DNA of 32,718 nt from Acidobacteriota bacterium (GTDB lineage: Bacteria > Acidobacteriota > UBA6911 > RPQK01 > JAJDTT01), in NCBI GenBank assembly GCA_022827025.1, contig JAJDTT010000293.1, forward strand, positions 1-32,718. Direction: 5' to 3'. Every line of letters starts with the position of its first letter. Position 1 is the stretch's first letter. Below are positions 209 through 32,513 of the stretch, in pieces. The notes beneath the pieces were generated by a model. The model saw nothing but the letters and a program-made list of their open reading frames with translations. It ran no database searches and was not told the origin of the DNA. The translations under genes and the position numbers were made by a program.

Positions 209-3200
209 CTATTCTCCCGGTTCCCTGACGACCAGGAGTTGTCCCGCCGCAACATCCTCCTGGACCTGCGTGATGCCGCTGGGCCAGCGGACCTCCAGAC
301 GGTCCACCTGCTTCGATTCGCCCAGGCCGAAGGTCAGCCGGGGATCGCTCTCGGAGAGATAGCTGGAGCCGGATCGCCGATAGCGCCGTTGGGTTGTGGA
401 GCCGGATTTCACGGTGACCAGGGTGCCGATGCCGTCCCGGTTGGAGGCGTTTCCCACGAGCCGGATCTGGATCCAGTGGTTTCGGTTACCTCCCTGGTTG
501 CGAAGCAGGTGCGCCGGGCCCCCGTTCTCCGTCACGACCAGATCCAGGTCCCCGTCGTTGTCATAGTCGATGGCCGCGGCGCCCCGTCCGGCATAGGTTC
601 GATCCAGAGCCGAGCCCGCCTCCCGGCCCATGGGCAGGAAGCGTCCGTCTCTTCCGTTGCGGAACAGGAGCGGGCGTTGCCGGTAGGTCAGCCGGGTCTG
701 AACCGTCTCCACCAGGTCGTCGATATGGCCGTTGACCGCCAACAGGTCCTGCCAGCCGTCCAGGTCATAGTCCAGAAAGAGGAGTCCGAAGCCAAGGGAC
801 AATAGACTGGGCTGCCCGATGCCCGCCGGGACGGCCTGATCGATGAAGTTCAGGCCCTTGCCCCAGCGGTAGAAGCCGATCCCCTCGTAGGAGAAGTTGG
901 TGACGGCCACCACCCCTCCACCGTCGTTGCCGGCGTCGGCCACGTCGACCCCCATGCCGGCCCGGGCCTGGCCCGATTCGGAAAAGCCGAATCCGTTGCG
1001 GGTCCCCACCTCCTCGAAGCGAAACCCGCCCCGGTTCAGATAGATCTTGTCGGGCTGGGTGTCCTCGGCCACCACCAGGTCCATCAGTCCGTTTTCGTCG
1101 AAATCCCAGAGGGCCACTCCCAAGGCCTTTCCCGTCGAGTTGAACAGTCCCGCCTCTTTGGTGACGTCCCGAAATCTTCCATTGCCCAGGTTGCGGTAGA
1201 GGCGCGAGGTGTCTCCGGAGAAGATCTCCGGAGTGCAATAGTGCTTGGCCCCGGGGCCGTAGCCGCACCACTGATCCTGCGAGGGAGTCCAGCGGACGTA
1301 GTTGGTGACGAAGAGGTCGAGGTTCCCGTCGTTGTCCGCATCCAGCCAAGCCGCGCTGGCGCCCCAGGAGGGATCGCCCACGCCAGCCTCAACGGTGATG
1401 TCGGAAAATGTCCCGTCCCCGTTGTTCCGATAGAGCCGGTTGATGCCCAGGTTCGTCACATACAGGTCCGGGAAGCCGTCGTTGTCGTAGTCTCCGGCCG
1501 CCGCCCCCATGCCGTAGGCGTGAGACCCCAGTCCGGCCTCCCGCGTCACGTCGCCGAAAGTGCCGTCCCCCCGGTTGCGGTACAGAACGGATCCGGCCCC
1601 TTCGGGCCTTCCAAGTTCCAGGCGCCAGCCGTTGACGAAGAAGAGGTCCATCCAGCCGTCCTGATCGAAGTCCAGGACCGCCACTCCCGACCCCATGGTC
1701 TCGGGCAGGTATCGTTTTCCCGTCTCACCCTTGAAATGCCGGAATCGGATGCCCGCTTCCTCGGTCACGTCCGTAAACTGGACCGAGGCAGGCTCGGCGC
1801 TTGCCAGGACGGCAAACGGCGCCCGAAACCACTCCCAGGCAAGGGATTTCGCTCTTCTCCAGACTTCTGAGAAAAACATGGGGCCCCCGGAGGGGGGACT
1901 TTCCAGTCCCCCCGTGGGAGTGGGGGTAGGAAAACCCCCACTCCTTAGCCGTCCCAGGAATCCGTCCCCCGTGCCAGTCTCCTTTCCCTCGCTCAGCGCA
2001 GCGGACGGATCGTTCCGGCCCCGGTCCCGGACGAAGACGTCGATGGTCCCGTTGTCGTCGCGAGCCACGAGGTTCGAGGCCTCCGATTCGAAGGCCACAA
2101 ATCGGCCGTCTTTGCTGACAGTGGAATCCCGGCTGAGGCCGTTTGTTTCCAGCCCCCTGACGGTCAAGCTGGTCCGGGTCGTGGATCCCGTCTCCCGGTC
2201 GTTGACGAAGATGTCCAGTGATCCATTGGTATCCCCATCCACCAGGTTGGAGGCGAAGGAGTGAAAGGCGACCCACCGGCCGTCGGCGCTGACAGCCGGG
2301 ACCCCGCTGCTCCCATTGGCCTGCCGGCCCTGGCTGTCGACGCTGACGCGGATGGTCTCCCCCGTCTGCCGGTCGTGGACGAAGACGTCGATATCCTGGT
2401 TGGTATCGCCGTCCACCAGGTTGGAGGCGTAGGAACCGAAGCCCACGAAACGGCCGTCTCCGCTGAGACTGGGGGCTGCGCTGCCTCCGTTGGCCTGGCG
2501 GCCCCGGCTGTCGACGCTCACCCGGGTGGTCTTCCCCGTCTGCCGGTCATGGACGAAGACGTCCGACACCCGATTGGTGTCGCCGTCCACCAGGTTGGAG
2601 GCGAGCGACTCGAAGGCCACGTATCGGCCCCGGCCGTCTACGCTGCAACCGGCGCTGCCTCCGTTGGCCTGGCGGCCCCGGCTGTCGGTGCTCACCCGAG
2701 TGGTTTCCCCGGCCTGCCGGTCGTGGACAAAGACATCGGTGGATTCGTTGCTGTCGCCGTCCACCAGGTTGGAGGCGAGGGACTCGAAAGCGACGAAGCG
2801 GCCGCCGCCACTGAGGCAGGGAACCCCGCTGGCGCTGTTGCCCTCGGCTCCGCCGTCGGCAAGGCTGACCCGGGTGGTCCTCCGCGTCTGCCGGTCGTGG
2901 ACGAAGACGTCCAGCGCTCCGTTGGTGTCGCCGTCCACCAGGTTGGAGGCGAGGGACTCGAAAGCGACGAAGCGGCCGCCGTCGCTGATCCTCGGAAACT
3001 GGCTCAGACTGTTGCCCTGGTTGCCTGCGTCGTCGACGCTGACCCGGACGGTCTCGCCCGTCCGGCGGTCGTGCACGAAGACGTCCGACACCCAGTTGGT
3101 GTCGCCGTCCACCAGGTTGGAAGCGGTCGACGTGTAGCCGACGAAGTGTCCGTTGGCGCTGATCTGGGCGTGTTGACTGGGACCGTTTCCCCGGTTGGGC

Positions 3201-3328
3201 CCGTGGACGCTGACCCTGGTGGTCGTCTGGGCGGCAAGTTCGGGGGCCGGCAGGATCAGGGGGAAGAGCAGCGGGAGAGTGGCGAGAACGCCTGCGGTGC
3301 TCCGTCCGCACCCAACCGGTTCGCTCAT
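209..3328 (-). CDS. Secreted seven-bladed propeller fused to CRTAC1-type FG-GAP/ASPIC-UnbV protein
   Basis: 1039 aa from the ATG at 3326-3328. This start gives a good signal peptide (hydrophobic LATLPLLFPLILP, Ala-rich cleavage region) and a 25-bp gap to the upstream phosphatase-like gene; a longer frame to 3499 would overlap that gene. Residues about 35-455 hold seven repeats of 58 aa (DNA period exactly 174 bp) with the signature ASNLVDGDTN...DVFVHDR, resembling TolB/PD40 propeller blades. The last blade lacks its final strand, which the N-terminal TTTRVSV strand can supply. From about residue 500 come seven FG-GAP calcium-loop repeats (for example DFDQDGWMDL, DYDNDGFPDL) and a C-terminal ASPIC/UnbV domain, the CRTAC1 arrangement. 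The linker at residues about 462-479 is encoded by two repeat hairpins (1892-1944). An ATG at 1877-1879 would give a stand-alone protein of about 556 aa, close to usual CRTAC1 length, so the frame may be a fusion of two genes. Probably extracellular; ligand unknown. Confidence 0.85.
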   Translation of the reverse strand: MSEPVGCGRSTAGVLATLPLLFPLILPAPELAAQTTTRVSVHGPNRGNGPSQHAQISANGHFVGYTSTASNLVDGDTNWVSDVFVHDRRTGETVRVSVDDAGNQGNSLSQFPRISDGGRFVAFESLASNLVDGDTNGALDVFVHDRQTRRTTRVSLADGGAEGNSASGVPCLSGGGRFVAFESLASNLVDGDSNESTDVFVHDRQAGETTRVSTDSRGRQANGGSAGCSVDGRGRYVAFESLASNLVDGDTNRVSDVFVHDRQTGKTTRVSVDSRGRQANGGSAAPSLSGDGRFVGFGSYASNLVDGDTNQDIDVFVHDRQTGETIRVSVDSQGRQANGSSGVPAVSADGRWVAFHSFASNLVDGDTNGSLDIFVNDRETGSTTRTSLTVRGLETNGLSRDSTVSKDGRFVAFESEASNLVARDDNGTIDVFVRDRGRNDPSAALSEGKETGTGDGFLGRLRSGGFPTPTPTGGLESPPSGGPMFFSEVWRRAKSLAWEWFRAPFAVLASAEPASVQFTDVTEEAGIRFRHFKGETGKRYLPETMGSGVAVLDFDQDGWMDLFFVNGWRLELGRPEGAGSVLYRNRGDGTFGDVTREAGLGSHAYGMGAAAGDYDNDGFPDLYVTNLGINRLYRNNGDGTFSDITVEAGVGDPSWGASAAWLDADNDGNLDLFVTNYVRWTPSQDQWCGYGPGAKHYCTPEIFSGDTSRLYRNLGNGRFRDVTKEAGLFNSTGKALGVALWDFDENGLMDLVVAEDTQPDKIYLNRGGFRFEEVGTRNGFGFSESGQARAGMGVDVADAGNDGGGVVAVTNFSYEGIGFYRWGKGLNFIDQAVPAGIGQPSLLSLGFGLLFLDYDLDGWQDLLAVNGHIDDLVETVQTRLTYRQRPLLFRNGRDGRFLPMGREAGSALDRTYAGRGAAAIDYDNDGDLDLVVTENGGPAHLLRNQGGNRNHWIQIRLVGNASNRDGIGTLVTVKSGSTTQRRYRRSGSSYLSESDPRLTFGLGESKQVDRLEVRWPSGITQVQEDVAAGQLLVVREPGE
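1892..1944. repeat. Double hairpin element inside a reading frame
   Basis: Two adjacent perfect hairpins. The first (1892-1913) has a 9-bp stem GGGGGGACT and loop TTCC. The second (1917-1944) has an 11-bp stem GGAGTGGGGGT and loop AGGAAA. The same pair, in the same order and orientation, occurs at 18725-18777 in an intergenic region. Here it encodes the Gly/Pro/Ser/Thr-rich linker between propeller and CRTAC1 domains on the minus strand. Confidence 0.9.
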
Positions 3329-3353
3329 GTCCGGATCCGCCACGATACCGCCA

Positions 3354-3830
3354 TCATCCGCTCCGGCGGAGGTTCCGGCCCGATTGAGACCTGACCTGGT
3401 CGATGAACCGCTGCCACGCCGGATAATCGGCGGGGTTCCAGATCGAAGCGATATGGGCACGGGCGTCTTCCCACGACCAGTCCAGGTCTTGCATCGCATA
3501 GAGAGCGTAGAAGGCGCTGACCCGATAGTTGGCCGCGCAGTGAATCAGGATCTTCTTTTCCCCGGCGTTCTTCATGACGAGTCTGAAGCGGCGGAAGTCC
3601 GTTGGCGTCGGGTTCGCGAAGTCGACGGGCAGGTAGTGGTATTCCAACCCCTGACCCTCGACAATCGCCCGTTCATCGGTGGCCGCCGCCTCCGATGAGT
3701 CCGGCAACATGTTGACCACCGCATCGAAGCCCTCCGCCCCGAGACGCCGCAGGCGGTCTTCGGACACCGATCCGGAGGTCGCGACGCGCCTGCTGATTTC
3801 CCGGTAGTTGACGGCGCCTTCGGTTGCCAT
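3354..3830 (-). CDS. Protein tyrosine phosphatase-like protein (DSP/DUF442-like)
   Basis: 158 aa, no signal peptide, so probably cytoplasmic. Residues about 95-105 carry IHCAANYRVSAF, matching the P-loop of the DUF442/beta-lactamase-hydrolase-like branch of cysteine phosphatases, where Cys and Arg are separated by four residues rather than the five of classical PTPs. The N-terminal part (DRLRRLGAEGFDAVVNMLPD) fits the usual first strand and helix of the DSP fold. The ATG at 3828-3830 is preceded by GAGGTGAAACC, a good ribosome site. It is the first gene of a minus-strand pair, 25 bp upstream of the propeller/CRTAC1 gene, and diverges from the GH38 gene 82 bp away. Substrate unknown; distant relatives include sulfide-metabolism fusions, but nothing here supports that role. 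Confidence 0.85.
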   Translation of the reverse strand: MATEGAVNYREISRRVATSGSVSEDRLRRLGAEGFDAVVNMLPDSSEAAATDERAIVEGQGLEYHYLPVDFANPTPTDFRRFRLVMKNAGEKKILIHCAANYRVSAFYALYAMQDLDWSWEDARAHIASIWNPADYPAWQRFIDQVRSQSGRNLRRSG

Positions 3831-6996: not shown

Positions 6997-9579
6997 GTGA
7001 GAGAGGAAAGAGGAGCGTTTCCGGAGCGGGGGTTTTCCTACCCCCGCTTTCGCAGCCTGCTGTCGCTGGCCATTGGTCACGGCAGGTCCGAAAGGAGGCG
7101 CCCGAAAGACGCTCCGGAATGGGGGACAGGAAAGTCCCCCCTCCTGGCGCTCCTTGTCCTGATGCTCCTCGGAGTTGCTCCCGTCTTCGGAGAGGACCAG
7201 GCGCGGCTCCTGAGGGAACGGAGCGTGGAGGTTCTGCGCCAAGCGCTGGAAGGCGAGACGGGGTGGGTCCGGATCCGGGCCGCCGAAGCCCTGCTCTGGC
7301 ACAACAACGGCGAGGGCGTGAAGGAGGTCTTCTCCGGCGAGGCGCCGGAACCCGGCTCGAGTCACGAGATCGGAGTCTGGCAGATCCTGGCCCAGGCGAC
7401 GCTCCGGAAGAGCCAGCACGAGCAGGAGCGCCAGCAATACGTGGACCGGATCCTCCAAGCTTTCCTGTCGAGTGAAGCCGAAAGGGGAAGCCGGGCGGCG
7501 GAGGCCCTGGTCAGGCTGGGGTTCGCGGGCCGGCCGGAGGAACTGCTTCGGTTGGCCCGCGAGGGTCGGCAGGCCCGGCAGGTGGACGCCCTTTGGCTGC
7601 TGGCTGCCTCCGGAGAGGACGATGATCGTACGGCGCTCGCCTCGCGCTTGGATTCTCCCGACACGGCTGTTCGCGCCAGGGCGGCCTACGCGCTCCGCCG
7701 CCTGGAGAGCGCCGGTCCCGATGTCCGTAACGCTTTGGAGCGGGCCCTGTCCGCTGAGGCCGCCGATTCAAGTGCCCGGATCTACCTCCTGAGCGGGCTC
7801 TACGTGCACGGCAACGGGGAAATCAGTCCCCCGGTCCGGTCCGAACTGCTTGGCTACGTCACGGACGGGACCCGGGAGCAGAGGTTGGAGGCCGTCGAGG
7901 CCCTGGCTCAGACCGGAGGCAAAGTCCAGGTCCCACTCCTGGAACCGCTGATTCGCCAGGGGACCGAACCGGAGATCCGCGTCGCCGCCGCCAATGCGCT
8001 GCTGCGGGTCGAGCGGCGGGACTTCCGGGGCCTGGGGTGGGTGGACTGGTTCGTGGTCGCCGCCTACGGCGCCTTCATGCTGGGCGTGGGCTGGTACTAC
8101 TCCCGCCGCCAGACCGACACCGAGGAGTATTTCCTGGGCAGCCGCAGCCTGGGTTCGTTCGTCATCGGGATTTCGCTCTACGCCACCTTGTTGAGCACGA
8201 TTTCCTATCTGGCGGTTCCCGGGGAGCTGGTCAAGCACGGACCGGGCATCGTCGTCTGGGGAATGTTGGGGATCCCTCTGATCGTCGTGTTCTGCGGCTT
8301 CTTCCTCCTGCCCGTTTTCATGAAGCTGCGCATCACCAGCGCCTACGAACTCCTGGAGGGCCGTCTGGGAATCGGGGTCCGGATCACGGCGGCGGTGATC
8401 TTCATCCTGACGCGCCTGGTCTGGATGGCTCTGCTCATCTACCTGGCGGCCAAGGCGGTGGTGGTCATGGTGGGTTGGCCCGAATCGGCGACGCCCATGG
8501 TGGTGATGGTGGCCGGGGCAATCGCGGTGCTCTACACCGCCCTCGGGGGTCTGCGGGCGGTCGTGATCACGGACGTCATTCAGTTCGTCATCCTCTTTGC
8601 CGGAGGGCTGATCACCATGGCGATGGTGACCATGGACATCGGTCTCGGGGGTTGGGTCCCGACCTCATGGGCGCCCCACTGGGACGAGATTCCGGTCTTC
8701 GACTGGAACCCGGCCGTGCGGGTGACGGTGATCGGATCGATCCTCTCCGGCGCGGTGTGGAGCATCTTCACCTACGGTTCGGACCAGGTGGCCATTCAGC
8801 GTTACCTGGCGACCCGGGACACCAGGGCCGCCCGGCGCGCCCTGTACATCAACATCGGCGCCGGCATCGCCGTCTCGGTTCTGCTGGCCGGGCTGGGCTT
8901 CTCGGTCCTGGGATTCTTCCAGACCCATCCCCACGCCATCGCCGACGGCAAGGATCTGCTGGCGGACGCCGATTTCCTGTTTCCCCACTTCATCGCCAAC
9001 TTTCTGCCGCAGGGATTGGCCGGCCTGGTCATCGCGGCCATGTTCGCCGCCGCCATGTCGAGCCTGGACTCGGGCATCAATTCCATCGTGACCGTGTTCC
9101 ACGTCGATTTTCTGGGCCGTTTCCGCCGCCGGAAACTGCGGAAGGAACACAGCGTCAAACTGGCCCGGGCGCTGGTGCTGGGGATCGGCATCGCGGTGGT
9201 TCTCCTCAGTGCGCCGGTGGGCAACGTCCCCGGCAACATCACCGAGGTGACCAACAAGACCAACGGCCTTTTCGTCGCCCCCCTGTTCGGACTCTTCTTC
9301 ATGTGCCTGTTCGTGCCGTTCTCGACGCCGTTCGGCGCCATCGTGGGGGCGGCCTACGGTTTTTCCTTCGCCTTCCTCTGGGCCTTCTGGGACCAGTGGA
9401 CCGGCGGGCCGAGCCTCAGCTTTCAGTGGATCTACCTGTTCCCGTTCATCGTCCACGTCGCGGTGGGCTCGGCCGCGAGCCTGCTGCCGACCCGCGGCAG
9501 GTCCTGGCGGTTCCTCCTCGTCTGCAGCCTCGCCGCCGGGGCCCCAATAGCAATCGCCTTCCTGTTATTGAGTTCGTAA
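6997..9579 (+). CDS. HEAT-repeat / sodium:solute symporter fusion protein
   Basis: 860 aa. Residues about 70-340 are helical repeats of HEAT/PBS-lyase type (for example VRIRAAEALLWHN, VRARAAYALRRLES, RVAAANALLRVE). Residues about 347-860 form a complete SSS-family sodium symporter: first membrane helix WVDWFVVAAYGAFMLGVGWYY, then YFLGSRSLGSFVIGISLYAT, LYTALGGLRAVVITDVIQF and SSLDSGINSI, with about 13 hydrophobic segments. A hydrophobic stretch at about 49-63 (LLALLVLMLLGVAPVFG) looks like a signal or anchor, which would place the HEAT part outside the cytoplasm. The start is uncertain: GTG at 6997 touches the upstream stop, and the only ATG near the anchor (7162) would leave too short a signal. 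The first 50 residues contain two repeat hairpins (7025-7048, 7121-7140). Likely imports a product of the neighbouring glycosidase or a related sugar. Confidence 0.85.
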   Translation: MREERGAFPERGFSYPRFRSLLSLAIGHGRSERRRPKDAPEWGTGKSPLLALLVLMLLGVAPVFGEDQARLLRERSVEVLRQALEGETGWVRIRAAEALLWHNNGEGVKEVFSGEAPEPGSSHEIGVWQILAQATLRKSQHEQERQQYVDRILQAFLSSEAERGSRAAEALVRLGFAGRPEELLRLAREGRQARQVDALWLLAASGEDDDRTALASRLDSPDTAVRARAAYALRRLESAGPDVRNALERALSAEAADSSARIYLLSGLYVHGNGEISPPVRSELLGYVTDGTREQRLEAVEALAQTGGKVQVPLLEPLIRQGTEPEIRVAAANALLRVERRDFRGLGWVDWFVVAAYGAFMLGVGWYYSRRQTDTEEYFLGSRSLGSFVIGISLYATLLSTISYLAVPGELVKHGPGIVVWGMLGIPLIVVFCGFFLLPVFMKLRITSAYELLEGRLGIGVRITAAVIFILTRLVWMALLIYLAAKAVVVMVGWPESATPMVVMVAGAIAVLYTALGGLRAVVITDVIQFVILFAGGLITMAMVTMDIGLGGWVPTSWAPHWDEIPVFDWNPAVRVTVIGSILSGAVWSIFTYGSDQVAIQRYLATRDTRAARRALYINIGAGIAVSVLLAGLGFSVLGFFQTHPHAIADGKDLLADADFLFPHFIANFLPQGLAGLVIAAMFAAAMSSLDSGINSIVTVFHVDFLGRFRRRKLRKEHSVKLARALVLGIGIAVVLLSAPVGNVPGNITEVTNKTNGLFVAPLFGLFFMCLFVPFSTPFGAIVGAAYGFSFAFLWAFWDQWTGGPSLSFQWIYLFPFIVHVAVGSAASLLPTRGRSWRFLLVCSLAAGAPIAIAFLLLSS
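7025..7048. repeat. Hairpin, loop TTTCCT
   Basis: Perfect 9-bp stem AGCGGGGGT closing loop TTTCCT, the complement of AGGAAA. Lies within the first 20 codons of the HEAT/SSS gene and encodes GFSYPR. Confidence 0.85.
7121..7140. repeat. Hairpin, loop AGGAAA
   Basis: Perfect 7-bp stem GGGGGAC closing loop AGGAAA. Encodes GTGKSP just before the hydrophobic signal/anchor of the HEAT/SSS protein. Its inner stem is the same as that of the 30203-30234 hairpin in the opposite orientation. Confidence 0.85.
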
Positions 9580-9588
9580 TCCCGGGAG

Positions 9589-9649
9589 CGGCGACATCCC
9601 TGTCGCCGAAGGAGCGGCGTCGTCCGGAGCGGCGGCGTCCTCGCCGCCG
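9589..9649. repeat. Hairpin cluster between convergent genes
   Basis: Begins 9 bp after the stop of the HEAT/SSS gene. Hairpin 9589-9608 has an 8-bp stem CGGCGACA and loop TCCC. Hairpin 9630-9649 has an 8-bp stem CGGCGGCG and loop TCCT, and is the copy of 98-117. Between them, GGAGCGGCG recurs, the same leader that precedes the hairpins at 25040 and 32480. A degenerate hairpin, GGGCG...CGCCC around CAAGAATG, follows at 9819-9838. Confidence 0.85.
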
Positions 9650-18647: not shown

Positions 18648-18667
18648 GGGGGACATTCTTGTCCCCC
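18648..18667. repeat. Hairpin, loop TTCT, downstream of TPR gene
   Basis: Perfect 8-bp stem GGGGGACA closing loop TTCT, 80 bp after the TPR stop. No T-run follows. Read on the other strand the core is ACAAGAATGT, which links the AGGAAA and ACAAG loop types. Confidence 0.8.
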
Positions 18668-18724
18668 TCTTCGCCGCGGTTGCTTTCGCTGGGCCCCGGT
18701 GGGGCCGGAGTTGGGCGGATAGGA

Positions 18725-18777
18725 GGGGGGACTTTCAGTCCCCCCCGAGGGAGTGGGGGTAGGAAAACCCCCACTCC
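18725..18777. repeat. Double hairpin element between convergent genes
   Basis: Second copy of the 1892-1944 element: hairpin 18725-18745 (9-bp stem GGGGGGACT, loop TTC) then hairpin 18750-18777 (11-bp stem GGAGTGGGGGT, loop AGGAAA). Only a few positions differ, all in the first loop and the joint. It lies 44 bp from the stop codon of the GWxTD gene. Confidence 0.9.
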
Positions 18778-24264: not shown

Positions 24265-25011
24265 ATGGACGAAAAACTGGCCGGCAAGGTGGTGCTGATC
24301 ACGGGGGCTGCGGGCGGAATCGGAACGGCCATCGCCCGGGCCGTCACCGATGAGTCGGCAACGGTGTTGCTCTGCGACATCAATCTCGAGGGCGCCCAGA
24401 GACTGGCGGATCGGTTGATCGGGGAAGGCCGGTCGGCGGCCGCTTACGCCCTCGATATTTCCCGGCCCCCGGAGATCTCGTCGGTCGTCGAGAAGATCGT
24501 GAAGCAACACGAGCGCATCGACGTGCTGGTGAACAATGCCGCCATCTGTCCTCGAATCCCGTTGGAAGAGGTGACCGAAGCCGATTTCGATCGGATCGTG
24601 GGGATCAACCTGAAGGGGACCTTCTTCGTGTCCCAGGCGGTGTCGCCGGTTATGGTCAGCCAGGGTTCGGGGAGAATCGTGAACATCAGTTCCGTCGGCG
24701 CCCGGACCGGCGGCGTGGCCGCTTCGTCGGTCTATGCGGCCACCAAGGCGGGCATCATCGCCATCACCAAGTCGTACGCCCGGACTCTGGCCCCCGACGT
24801 CACCGTCAATGCCATCGCTCCCGGAGTCGTCGATACGGACATGATGCGGATTCCGTCGGAGCAGGTGGCGGCCATCGTCGACCAGATTCCCCTGGGAAGG
24901 CTGGCCGATCCGGAAGAGATCGCCTCCGTCGTCGTCTTCCTGGCCTCGCAGGAAGCGTCCTACTTCACCGGAGCCACCCTCGACGTCAACGGGGGGTGGT
25001 TCATGTATTAG
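24265..25011 (+). CDS. SDR-family oxidoreductase
   Basis: 248 aa; GGAGG lies nine bases before the ATG. Cofactor motif TGAAGGIG at 13-20, Asp after strand two (LLCDIN) favouring NAD(H), NNAA, catalytic Ser in NISSVGA, Tyr and Lys in YAATKAG, and C-terminus LDVNGGWFMY. Similar in type to 3-oxoacyl-ACP reductase or polyol dehydrogenases, but fatty-acid synthesis neighbours are absent, and the context suggests a catabolic dehydrogenase. Last gene of the operon; a hairpin cluster starts right after its stop codon. Confidence 0.9.
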   Translation: MDEKLAGKVVLITGAAGGIGTAIARAVTDESATVLLCDINLEGAQRLADRLIGEGRSAAAYALDISRPPEISSVVEKIVKQHERIDVLVNNAAICPRIPLEEVTEADFDRIVGINLKGTFFVSQAVSPVMVSQGSGRIVNISSVGARTGGVAASSVYAATKAGIIAITKSYARTLAPDVTVNAIAPGVVDTDMMRIPSEQVAAIVDQIPLGRLADPEEIASVVVFLASQEASYFTGATLDVNGGWFMY

Positions 25012-25138
25012 GGGAGCGAAATCCTTGTCGCCGAAGGAGCGGCGATTTCCAATCGCCGAGGGCCGGCGGTTTCTAGTCGCCGACAGGGGGGATTAGGGGG
25101 GACGGCAGTCCTCCCTCCGCGTAGCGTCTTCCAAGAGG
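25012..25138. repeat. Degenerate and intact hairpins downstream of SDR gene
   Basis: Contains a decayed version of the 9589 hairpin (GAGCGAAATCCTTGTCGCCG, 25014-25033), an intact hairpin at 25040-25058 (8-bp stem CGGCGATT, loop TCC), a partly wobble-paired one at 25064-25082, and the words GACAGGGGGG and TTAGGGGGG, which recur in similar order at 32500-32513. No coding frame. Confidence 0.75.
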
Positions 25139-25254
25139 GCGATTAGGAAATCGCCCCTCCGGTGGGCGGCTAGAAACCGCCTCTCCCGGCGATTAGGAAA
25201 TCGTCCTTCCAGGGGGCGGCTAGAAACCGCCCCTCCTGGCGATTAGGAAATCGC
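25139..25254. repeat. Array of five alternating hairpins at exact 25-bp spacing
   Basis: Type 1 hairpins (stem GGCGATT, loop AGGA) start at 25139, 25189 and 25239. Type 2 hairpins (core GGCGGCTAGAAACCGCC) start at 25164 and 25214. Starts are exactly 25 bp apart, so each type repeats with a 50-bp period. Most hairpins are followed by a CTCC-like word. The middle type 1 copy has one change (T for C) in its right arm. The last copy contains the stop codon of the enolase-superfamily gene. Not a CRISPR: the two unit types alternate and there are no unique spacers. Confidence 0.9.
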
Positions 25255-26385
25255 CCCTCCGAACGCGTACTTCTCGACCACGGACTGGTCCACCGTCACC
25301 CCCAGGCCCGGGCTCTCCCGGACCTCGAGATAGCCGTCCTCCTGGACCCAGGGATCGGAGACCAGCTCATGCTGCATCGGTGAAGTGTGGGGCTTGAAGT
25401 CCATCGCTGCGCCATGGGTCGAACTGGCGAGAAGGTGAACGCTCGCCGCCGTGTTCAGGGCGCTGCTCCAGGTGTGGGCGGAGAACTGGATGTTCTGGGC
25501 CTCGATCAGCGGAACCACCTTGACGCAGCCGGTGATCCCCAGGCACCGTCCCGGATCCATCTGCACCACGTCCACGGCGCCGTGCTTCAGGAGGCGCCGG
25601 TAGCCCTCCGGGTTCCACTCCTGCTCGCCGGTGCCGATGGGGGTCCGGGTCCCCGCGCGGAGGAGCCGGTGAGCGGCATAGTCCTGGGGCGGAAGCGGCT
25701 CTTCGATCCAGCGCAGCCGGTAGGCTTCGAAGTCGCGGACCCGGCGAATCGCCTCCTGGGCGCTCCATTTCACCCGGCCTCCCAACACGTCGAAGACGAT
25801 CTCGCATTCGGGGCCGACGATCTCCCTCACGTCTCGCACCAGCGCCAGGTCCTTGGCGTGGTCCAACCCGAAGACGGCGTCGGGCGCGCTGCCCCAGCCG
25901 CCCTTGACGATCCGGTAGCCCTGGTCCTTGAAGGTTTGAAACTCGTTCAGCGTCCAGTCCAGGTCGACCATGTCCAGGTGGATGGACGCCATGGCCACGA
26001 CTCGCGGCACGACCCGTCCTCCCATGAGCCGGCACACCGGCTGGTTCAGCAGGTGCCCCTTCAGATCCCAGAGGGCCATGTCCACGGCGCTCACGGCGAA
26101 TCCCGCGATCCCCTGGGGCCCGTACCACCAGATGTGATTCAACAGCTTGTGCCAGAGGCGCTCCACGTCCAGGGCGTTCTCGCCGGTCAACATGGGGGCG
26201 TATCCGCGCTCGATGACGGTCTTGACGGCTGCGGCCGACTCGGGAAACTGGCTGATGCATTCCCCCCAGCCCACGGCTCCCCCTTCGGCTTCCACCCGGG
26301 CCAGGGTGATGTAGCGGATGTTGTTGTGGTCGTGAGGTTCGGGGTAGCGCAGAGGATACGCATCCACCCGCCGTATCTTCGTCAT
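25243..26385 (-). CDS. Enolase-superfamily enzyme (mandelate racemase/sugar-acid dehydratase group)
   Basis: 380 aa. Capping domain 1-125, then the barrel. Metal ligands are Asp199 (VFDV), Glu228 or Glu229 (WIEEPL) and Glu254 (GTGEQEW). The general base His304 (FSAHTWSSA) pairs with Asp277 (VQMDPGR), as in the mandelate racemase subgroup. On strand two only Lys161 of the usual KxK is present; residue 163 is Gly. This points to a dehydratase-like or divergent enzyme for a sugar acid such as an aldonate. Upstream minus-strand genes include a RhaT-type transporter, so L-rhamnonate or a similar acid is conceivable but unproven. ATG at 26383-26385 follows GGAAAGG. The last four codons and the stop (GAIS-stop) are made of a repeat hairpin. 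Gap of 45 bp to the PSD1-type gene upstream. Confidence 0.85.
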   Translation of the reverse strand: MTKIRRVDAYPLRYPEPHDHNNIRYITLARVEAEGGAVGWGECISQFPESAAAVKTVIERGYAPMLTGENALDVERLWHKLLNHIWWYGPQGIAGFAVSAVDMALWDLKGHLLNQPVCRLMGGRVVPRVVAMASIHLDMVDLDWTLNEFQTFKDQGYRIVKGGWGSAPDAVFGLDHAKDLALVRDVREIVGPECEIVFDVLGGRVKWSAQEAIRRVRDFEAYRLRWIEEPLPPQDYAAHRLLRAGTRTPIGTGEQEWNPEGYRRLLKHGAVDVVQMDPGRCLGITGCVKVVPLIEAQNIQFSAHTWSSALNTAASVHLLASSTHGAAMDFKPHTSPMQHELVSDPWVQEDGYLEVRESPGLGVTVDQSVVEKYAFGGAIS

Positions 26386-31340: not shown

Positions 31341-32513
31341 ATGGAGACAATCCAATTGCCCAAGCTGGCCATCACCATGGAAGAGGGGACCGTCGTGCGA
31401 TGGCTCAAGCAGGAGGGCGATCCCATCGTCAAGGGTGAACCTGTGGTCGAGATCGAGACCGAGAAGGCCAACGCCGAGATCGAGGCCATCTGCGTCGGCT
31501 TCCTCAAGAAAATCGCCGTCAAGGAAGGCGAAGCCGCCCCGGTGGAAGCCGTGCTGGCCTATGTCGCCACCGACGAAGCGGAATTGAGCGCTCCCTTCGA
31601 ACCCGCCGTCCCCGAGCTGAAGCCAAAGGCCCCGGTGCTTTCCACGAAACCGTCCCCCAAGACCCCGCGCCGACCCTCTCAGGGCCCTGCGGCCAGAACG
31701 AAGGGCCCGGTGCGGGCCGCTCCGGCGGCCCGCCGGTTGGCCCGGGAACTGGGTCTGGATCTCGCGTCGATCCCGGGGACCGGTCCGGGAGGGCGTATTC
31801 TGCCGAAGGACGTTCGCCGTGCCCAAGCCGCTGCCGCCGAACCGCCGGCAGACCCACTCGAAAAACGAAGGCCGATCATTGCCACGCTGACCAAGTCCAT
31901 CCGGTCGATTCCCCACATCCACATCTGCCGGAAGCTGCCGGCGGACGGATTGATCGCCCTGAAGCGACGCAACCGGGACGTGACCTACACGGAGATCCTG
32001 CTCAAGGCCCTGGCGCTGGCGGTCGAGAAATGTCCCGCGTTCAAGACTTCACTGGTGGACGACCGGCTCCACCAGCCGGACACCACCAGGCTGGGGTTCG
32101 TCGTCGACGTGGAGGACGCCCTGGTGATCCCCACCATCGAAGACCCGGCAAGCAAATCGATCCAGGATCTGGCGGCCGAAGTTCGGAGCCTGACCCGCCG
32201 GGCCCGGCAGGGGACCCTGAAGCACGCCGACGTGAGTGGGGCCACGGTGAGCCTCAGCAATCTCGGAATGCACGAGGTCGACCTCTTCACCGCAGTCATC
32301 CCTTACGGCCAGGCCGCCGTGCTCACCACCGGCCGGATCCGATATCAGCCGACCCTGCAAGAAGGATCGTTGGGGGAAGTCCCCCGGCTGTGGGCGAACC
32401 TGACCGTGGACCATCGCCTGATCGACGGCGTCGCCGCCGCCAAGTTCCTGAAGACCCTGGCCAACCTGCTTGGTAGGAGCGGCGGCTTTCCAGCCGCCGA
32501 CAGGGGGGTCTAA
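31341..32513 (+). CDS. Dihydrolipoamide acyltransferase, E2 of a 2-oxoacid dehydrogenase complex
   Basis: 390 aa, GGAGGGG before the ATG. Lipoyl domain 1-77 with the lipoylated lysine Lys42 in EIETEKANAEIE; a Pro/Ala/Lys-rich linker 78-120; peripheral subunit-binding domain about 125-160 (ARRLARELGLDLASIPGTGP); catalytic domain about 170-377 with the active-site motif DHRLIDG (His358, Asp362). Transfers the acyl group from lipoamide to CoA. No E1 or E3 gene is in the window, so it may pair with subunits encoded downstream beyond the transposon or elsewhere. The C-terminus is odd: after LANLL the last 13 residues (GRSGGFPAADRGV) and the stop come from two repeat hairpins, replacing the usual short tail. 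Divergent from rhaT, 38 bp apart. Confidence 0.9.
   Translation: METIQLPKLAITMEEGTVVRWLKQEGDPIVKGEPVVEIETEKANAEIEAICVGFLKKIAVKEGEAAPVEAVLAYVATDEAELSAPFEPAVPELKPKAPVLSTKPSPKTPRRPSQGPAARTKGPVRAAPAARRLARELGLDLASIPGTGPGGRILPKDVRRAQAAAAEPPADPLEKRRPIIATLTKSIRSIPHIHICRKLPADGLIALKRRNRDVTYTEILLKALALAVEKCPAFKTSLVDDRLHQPDTTRLGFVVDVEDALVIPTIEDPASKSIQDLAAEVRSLTRRARQGTLKHADVSGATVSLSNLGMHEVDLFTAVIPYGQAAVLTTGRIRYQPTLQEGSLGEVPRLWANLTVDHRLIDGVAAAKFLKTLANLLGRSGGFPAADRGV

Follow-up and report, generated by a model that had tools for sequence, protein, structure and literature searches.

The window analyzed here, by which we mean the whole 32,718-nucleotide stretch of DNA from an Acidobacteriota bacterium, contains between two convergent genes a run of five hairpins of two kinds, and the locus raises the question of whether these are a one-off array or part of a larger repeat element. 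A sequence-only reading had described the hairpins as alternating in the order A-B-A-B-A, with a single change in one arm of the middle A. Both observations are borne out at positions 25138 to 25255: the A hairpin (GGCGATTAGGAAATCGCC; 18 nt) has a 7-bp stem and the loop AGGA, the B hairpin (GGCGGCTAGAAACCGCC; 17 nt) has a 5-bp stem and the loop CTAGAAA, and the middle A ends in GTC instead of GCC. That reading had missed two inverted copies (25040 to 25058 and 25065 to 25081), a further, apparently decayed copy (25011 to 25033), and a core hairpin (25095 to 25116). The five reported hairpins are the lengthened right arm of a REP/BIME element and not a one-off array; the arms point outward from the core, with two intact REPs and one probably decayed REP on the left and five on the right. 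The whole 235-nt element fills the gap between the two genes and is laid out as follows.

24265 to 25011, + strand: flanking gene for a short-chain dehydrogenase/reductase (SDR; PF13561).
25011 to 25033, + strand: left-arm REP GGGGAGCGAAATCCTTGTCGCCG, probably decayed, directly after the SDR stop codon TAG (25009 to 25011); recognized from its sequence.
25036 to 25058, + strand: left-arm outer REP, tag GGAG (25036 to 25039) and hairpin CGGCGATTTCCAATCGCCG; pattern match.
25060 to 25081, + strand: left-arm inner REP, degenerate tag GGGCC and hairpin GGCGGTTTCTAGTCGCC; pattern match.
25082 to 25136, no strand: core or spacer of about 56 bp, parts of which are also found at this locus in congeners and in several other elements of the genome.
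25095 to 25116, no strand: core hairpin with a 9-bp stem, AGGGGGGAC-GGCA-GTCCTCCCT; found by folding.
25137 to 25160, − strand: right-arm REP A1, tag GGAG (25157 to 25160); pattern match.
25165 to 25186, − strand: right-arm REP B1, tag GGAG (25183 to 25186); pattern match.
25188 to 25210, − strand: right-arm REP A2, one arm base changed, tag GGAA (25207 to 25210); pattern match.
25214 to 25236, − strand: right-arm REP B2, tag GGAG (25233 to 25236); pattern match.
25238 to 25260, − strand: outermost right-arm REP A3, tag GGAG (25257 to 25260); its loop supplies the stop codon TAA (25243 to 25245) of the enolase-like gene.
25243 to 26385, − strand: flanking convergent gene of the enolase/mandelate-racemase superfamily (PF13378, PF02746).

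At the place of the putatively decayed copy, two congeners carry intact-looking counterparts, GGGAGCGACTTCCCTGTCGCCG in G001 and GGGGAGGCGACTTTCCTATCGCCG in G002. Folded as single-stranded DNA, the 235-nt element reaches −79.2 kcal/mol versus −49.1 kcal/mol for shuffled sequences (z, −7.5). The outermost hairpin also alters a protein end: relatives of the enolase-like gene product terminate in ...EKYAF followed by the stop, and here A3 adds GGAIS and provides the TAA.

The internal structure of the right arm is that of a repeated pair. The 25-bp spacing originally described as exact results from the choice of start points; the hairpin axes alternate between 26.5 and 23.5 bp, with linkers of 9 nt from A to B and 6 nt from B to A. 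Tandem-repeat analysis recovered a period of 50 with 0% indels and one of 24 with 13% indels, so that exactness exists only at 50 bp. The two full 50-bp units are identical at 44 of 50 positions, and the remaining six differences (6/50) indicate that the amplification is not notably recent, leaving the earlier suggestion of recency unsupported. The proposal that a 50-bp A+B pair is the local unit fares better, for a second alternating array (contig C181, locus L175) has a pair period of 49 bp, and outer and second REPs differ throughout the genome.

The search of the whole genome, a 5.3-Mb draft in 318 contigs, showed that these hairpins belong to a large family. A relaxed hairpin pattern gave 136 exact matches and 206 with one mismatch, and the reversed-pattern control gave 0 and 1. 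With up to two mismatches allowed, the genome contains 40 copies of the A hairpin of the window and 100 of the B hairpin; the reversed control patterns found 0 and 2, so these numbers are far beyond chance. The element is dispersed over about 100 sites, usually just after the ends of genes. Exact pattern matches number 39, 38, and 129 in three congeners (likewise draft genomes), and a search of 56 others drawn from the order, class, and phylum yielded a single match in one genome; the hairpin pattern is thus essentially confined to the genus.

A census of 182 REPs in 97 regions, chosen from pattern matches among the matches listed (later contigs being covered through A and B matches only), defined the anatomy of the unit. 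The clusters typically consist of a left arm, a core, and a right arm, with tags outward, and the REPs have stems of 5 to 8 bp, each preceded by an unpaired GGAG or GGAA. This unpaired tag GGA[AG] occupies positions −5 to −2 on the 5′ side of the stem in 161 of the 182 copies (GGAG in 120, GGAA in 41), while the 3′ side of the same copies holds nothing comparable. The stems vary in a compensatory manner, with A-T in 98 and G-C in 82 copies at the fifth pair (two exceptions) and G-C in 82 and C-G in 72 at the foot pair, these counts being of copies and not of independent events. Position within an arm is likewise marked: among 56 distinct tandem arms, the outermost REP carries the tag GGAG in 52 and mostly a CCAA, CCAG, or CCTAA loop. 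The GGAA tag is found in 25 second REPs versus 1 outermost REP (Fisher P = 9e-9), and the CTAG loop in 26 versus 2 (P = 1e-7). On account of this genome-wide polarity, we read the A-B alternation of the window as a repeated instance of the outer/inner order, although loop types and tags are partly shuffled there (A2 has GGAA), so that the pair is not cleanly assignable to outer and inner roles.

The genome also encodes candidate enzymes for such a system. Two Y1 transposase genes, on contigs C22 and C110, exceed the Pfam cutoff (PF01797). Their products match the NCBIfam REP-associated tyrosine transposase model (NF047646) with E values of 4e-18 and 2e-20, and their scores of 65.8 and 72.9 bits fall below its curated cutoff of 80, which is an annotation threshold and not a defining property. 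The aligned RAYTs possess the class-defining HuH motif P[NK]HVH and the tyrosine motif EYIR[LEG]NP, and a profile of six congeneric RAYTs found E. coli TnpA_REP as its best solved relative (4er8; 2.2e-5); the predicted RAYT structure, with a mean pLDDT of 39, is too low in confidence for fold comparison. Tagged hairpins adjoin RAYT genes in all four species (that of the genome under study and the congeners G001, G002, and G003). In G003, the RAYT of contig C53 is flanked by GGAAGGGCGATTTCCTAATCGCCC, which is exactly the A hairpin of the window with its tag. In the genome under study, the REPs directly beside the RAYTs are of other types: the C110 gene is bounded by a different tagged hairpin, GGAGGGGGGACTTTTAGTCCCCCC, and its nearest A/B REPs lie about 0.55 kb downstream, which counts against a settled pairing of the A/B hairpins with an enzyme. 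The C22 gene and its counterparts in G001 (C15a), G002 (C477), and G003 (C53) are taken as syntenic because their flanking DNA is 87 to 97% identical, and the REPs beside them differ by species. A second RAYT of G001 (L206:1483-2117) is disrupted by frameshifts, and two REPs of the type typical of that species come after it.

Repeats of related and unrelated kinds occur elsewhere in the window and genome. Positions 18648 to 18740 hold a cluster of another tagged REP type, GGAGGGGGGACATTCTTGTCCCCC and GGAGGGGGGACTTTCAGTCCCCCC with the inverted partner GGGGGTAGGAAAACCCCCACTCC, which is the type flanking the C110 RAYT. Two GGAG-tagged hairpins, CGGCGACATCCCTGTCGCCG and CGGCGGCGTCCTCGCCGCCG, lie at 9589 to 9649, the second belonging to a type that also occurs near the C22 RAYT, and single tagged hairpins of REP type are present at 98 to 117, 7121 to 7140, and 32480 to 32499. 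A tandem repeat of about 174 bp (5.4 copies; 2187 to 3125) falls within an open reading frame on the − strand (209 to 3499). A larger mosaic repeat of about 320 bp, present at L164:1441-1760 and about 20 other loci, contains a CCAG/CTAG REP doublet close to one of its ends and REPs of other types in its interior; many of its copies coincide with the ends of contigs, making it a probable cause of breaks in the assembly.

These properties correspond closely to those of REPs, which are defined by a tetranucleotide, mostly GTAG, 5′ of a short hairpin (PMC8266576, PMC6006769). The hairpins described here are palindromes within the 20- to 40-nt range of REPs in the broad sense, are of high copy number and mainly extragenic, and carry four conserved, unpaired nucleotides on the 5′ side of the hairpin foot; a RAYT gene flanked by REPs is present in the genome; and, as in BIMEs and REPINs, inverse REPs are joined by a linker and frequently clustered. 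The canonical tag is GT[A/G]G (PMC6006769, PMC3733652), which we counted against a REP assignment, since the tag here is GGA[G/A]; neither GTAG nor GTGG occurs among the listed tags of the 182 REPs. Like the y and z REPs of E. coli and those of Stenotrophomonas and Pseudomonas (PMC2817692, PMC8266576), the family comprises short tagged intergenic hairpins in more than 100 copies, clustered about a spacer in inverted and tandem arrangement, with a RAYT beside REPs and REPs touching stop codons; two variants share one composite, as with y and z. It differs from them in its GGAG/GGAA tag, in its arms, which often contain several direct copies that follow a preferred outer/inner order, and in its phylum, Acidobacteriota. 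The GTAG REP superfamily (Di Nocera 2013, PMC3733652) was already known to include inverted dimers whose tags face outward and whose spacers are conserved, as well as tandem clusters and stop codons supplied by the REP, including by its tag, but that superfamily has GTAG, from which GGAG is one base away. The REPINs of P. fluorescens SBW25 (PMC3116915) resemble the present elements in being dispersed as an inverted REP pair with a spacer, in forming some ordered tandem clusters, and in their proximity to a RAYT, whereas here an arm contains one to seven REPs in direct orientation and spacers vary in length. Within Acidobacteria, the hairpins of TnpA_Y1 class 3, about 600 of them in Solibacter usitatus, are also of high copy number and linked to a Y1-type enzyme, but they have the tag CnGA and the enzyme motif Y....Q (PMC6006769), in contrast to GGA[GA] and YIR[LEG]NP. 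As the tag departs from both GTAG and CnGA, we file the element as a REP/BIME in the broad sense and not as a GTAG REP. Acidobacterial RAYTs have been named (PMC3733652), and RepRanger gave REP-like counts for three Acidobacteriota genomes (PMC12306157); the literature searched yielded no description of a GGAG/GGAA-tagged REP family.

Comparison of the SDR/enolase junction among species indicates what has been retained and what has changed. The G003 contig extends only about 75 bp past the stop codon of the enolase-like gene, so the comparison is of the genome under study, G001, and G002. The arrays of G001 (on two contigs) and G002 have a related core and other loops, e.g., CTTTCTTG in G001, a type that, with at most one mismatch, numbers 293 in G001, 167 in G002, 80 in G003, and 83 (one of them exact) in the genome under study. 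The junction occurs twice in G001 (L222 and L223, on contigs C38 and C44) with different REP arms; because 8% contamination is recorded for that assembly, it may be a mixture of two strains. The second junction examined (C76) shows a related core in each of the four species, with differing arms. At a third (C234), the genome under study has six REPs, G003 has two REPs without the core, G002 has other hairpins, and G001 has none. Core hairpins related to that at 25095 to 25116 were found in all four species. A related core with other types and numbers of hairpins at two orthologous sites suggests that the arms may turn over in place. This resembles the "orthoswitch" of REPs at syntenic RAYTs in Pseudomonas and Stenotrophomonas, in which older REPs are partly replaced (Nunvar 2013, PMC3686654): here, too, a RAYT is syntenic in four congeners and the flanking REP types differ. 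Unlike in the orthoswitch, the difference in type extends to two non-RAYT sites, around a retained core. It is conceivable, though we hold this only tentatively, that the core had settled in these junctions before the genus diversified and has been retained, and that each species overwrites the attached REPs with the type active in it at present and in its own number, driven by switches in RAYT specificity; with three loci examined, in-place replacement is a reading and not a result.

We consider it very probable that the hairpins, together with the core, make up a composite REP element (BIME) of the type associated with RAYT/TnpA_REP transposases, with the tag GGAG in place of GTAG. We infer mobilization by the RAYT, a route for the lengthening of the arm, and an effect on transcripts along the following lines. 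The RAYT, a single-strand HuH transposase, would nick beside a tagged hairpin when the DNA is single stranded and would insert or exchange REPs next to existing ones. Duplication of the pair, either by the RAYT or by replication slippage, may then have extended the right arm to A-B-A-B-A. The element would persist because, immediately after stop codons, it is harmless, and it may serve as a 3′-end hairpin for the transcripts of both convergent genes.

Replication slippage of the 50-bp pair might also have produced the A-B-A-B-A array entirely by itself, with no transposase acting on it. The 50-bp period without indels and the adjacency of units sharing 44 of 50 positions are as expected from slippage, but it accounts for local copy number only and not for the dispersed sites, the fixed tag, and the inverted design; moreover, arms of other hairpin types in the congeners are likewise multicopy. 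As the sole origin of the array, slippage therefore seems to us rather doubtful.

The position of the REPs relative to genes bears on a different proposal, that the hairpins are primarily a selected device at transcript 3′ ends (a bidirectional terminator or an mRNA-stabilizing structure) and their mobility is incidental. Where both neighbors were called, the gaps holding elements are tandem in 25 cases, convergent in 17, and divergent in 7, and 10 elements were scored as overlapping genes; these counts are approximate because the gene context comes from a home-made codon-usage gene caller. Nineteen outward-facing REPs begin 5 to 9 nt beyond a stop codon (TAGGAG, TAAGGAG, and TGAGGAG being the typical sequences), and in others, including that of the window, the stop codon is inside the loop. 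This hugging of stop codons, the 17:7 excess of convergent over divergent gaps, the strong folding, and the related core common to congeners at the same two junctions would all suit a 3′-end device. However, no hairpin is followed by a T run, hairpin types and numbers vary freely among species, and REPs are absent from the third locus in G001, so we regard such a primary role as unlikely; it is nevertheless compatible with the REP assignment, the two not being exclusive. Two specific candidates were rejected. The hairpins are not canonical intrinsic terminators, as they lack the T run and are followed by CCTCC-like sequence on the + strand and by G/C-rich linkers on the − strand, and a search of the element against Rfam for a known structured RNA gave no match above the gathering score, the best two (E values of 0.35 to 0.42) being far below it.

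A regular phasing of the hairpins was also proposed, with 25-bp steps placing binding sites on alternate faces of the helix. In the genome, the axis distances of about 100 tandem neighbors do cluster despite the variable sequence of the linkers (mostly 9 to 10 nt), at 26 (n = 35), 27 (n = 27), and 27.5 bp (n = 10), and this mode of 26 to 27 bp is nearer 2.5 helical turns than 25 bp is, a proximity that we consider coincidental. The distance of 25.0 bp was found in only five of these neighbors, the extremes are 19 and 28 bp, and the axes in the window alternate between 26.5 and 23.5 bp. Since tag, hairpin, and short linker make a fixed unit length, the same clustering is expected with no need for phasing, and we consider phasing very improbable and reject it as a rule on this census. 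An assembly artifact or chimera, which a draft of 318 contigs with other copies of the repeats at contig ends might suggest, has next to no likelihood, because elements of the same design stand at the same junction in independently assembled congeners and the 125-bp array, with its diverged units, lies well inside the contig.

The composite REP element thus adds a GGAG-tagged REP system to the Acidobacteriota, where RAYTs and counts of REP-like palindromes had already been reported. In annotation, small C-terminal extensions that are species specific can be explained by stop codons contributed by REPs. If arms are indeed overwritten around an old core, the element in the window would record one moment in the history of a repeat that is renewed at fixed positions and not only by new insertions. 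The set of four species offers a natural test of how changes in REP type accompany changes in RAYT specificity and of whether REPs are renewed at old sites.
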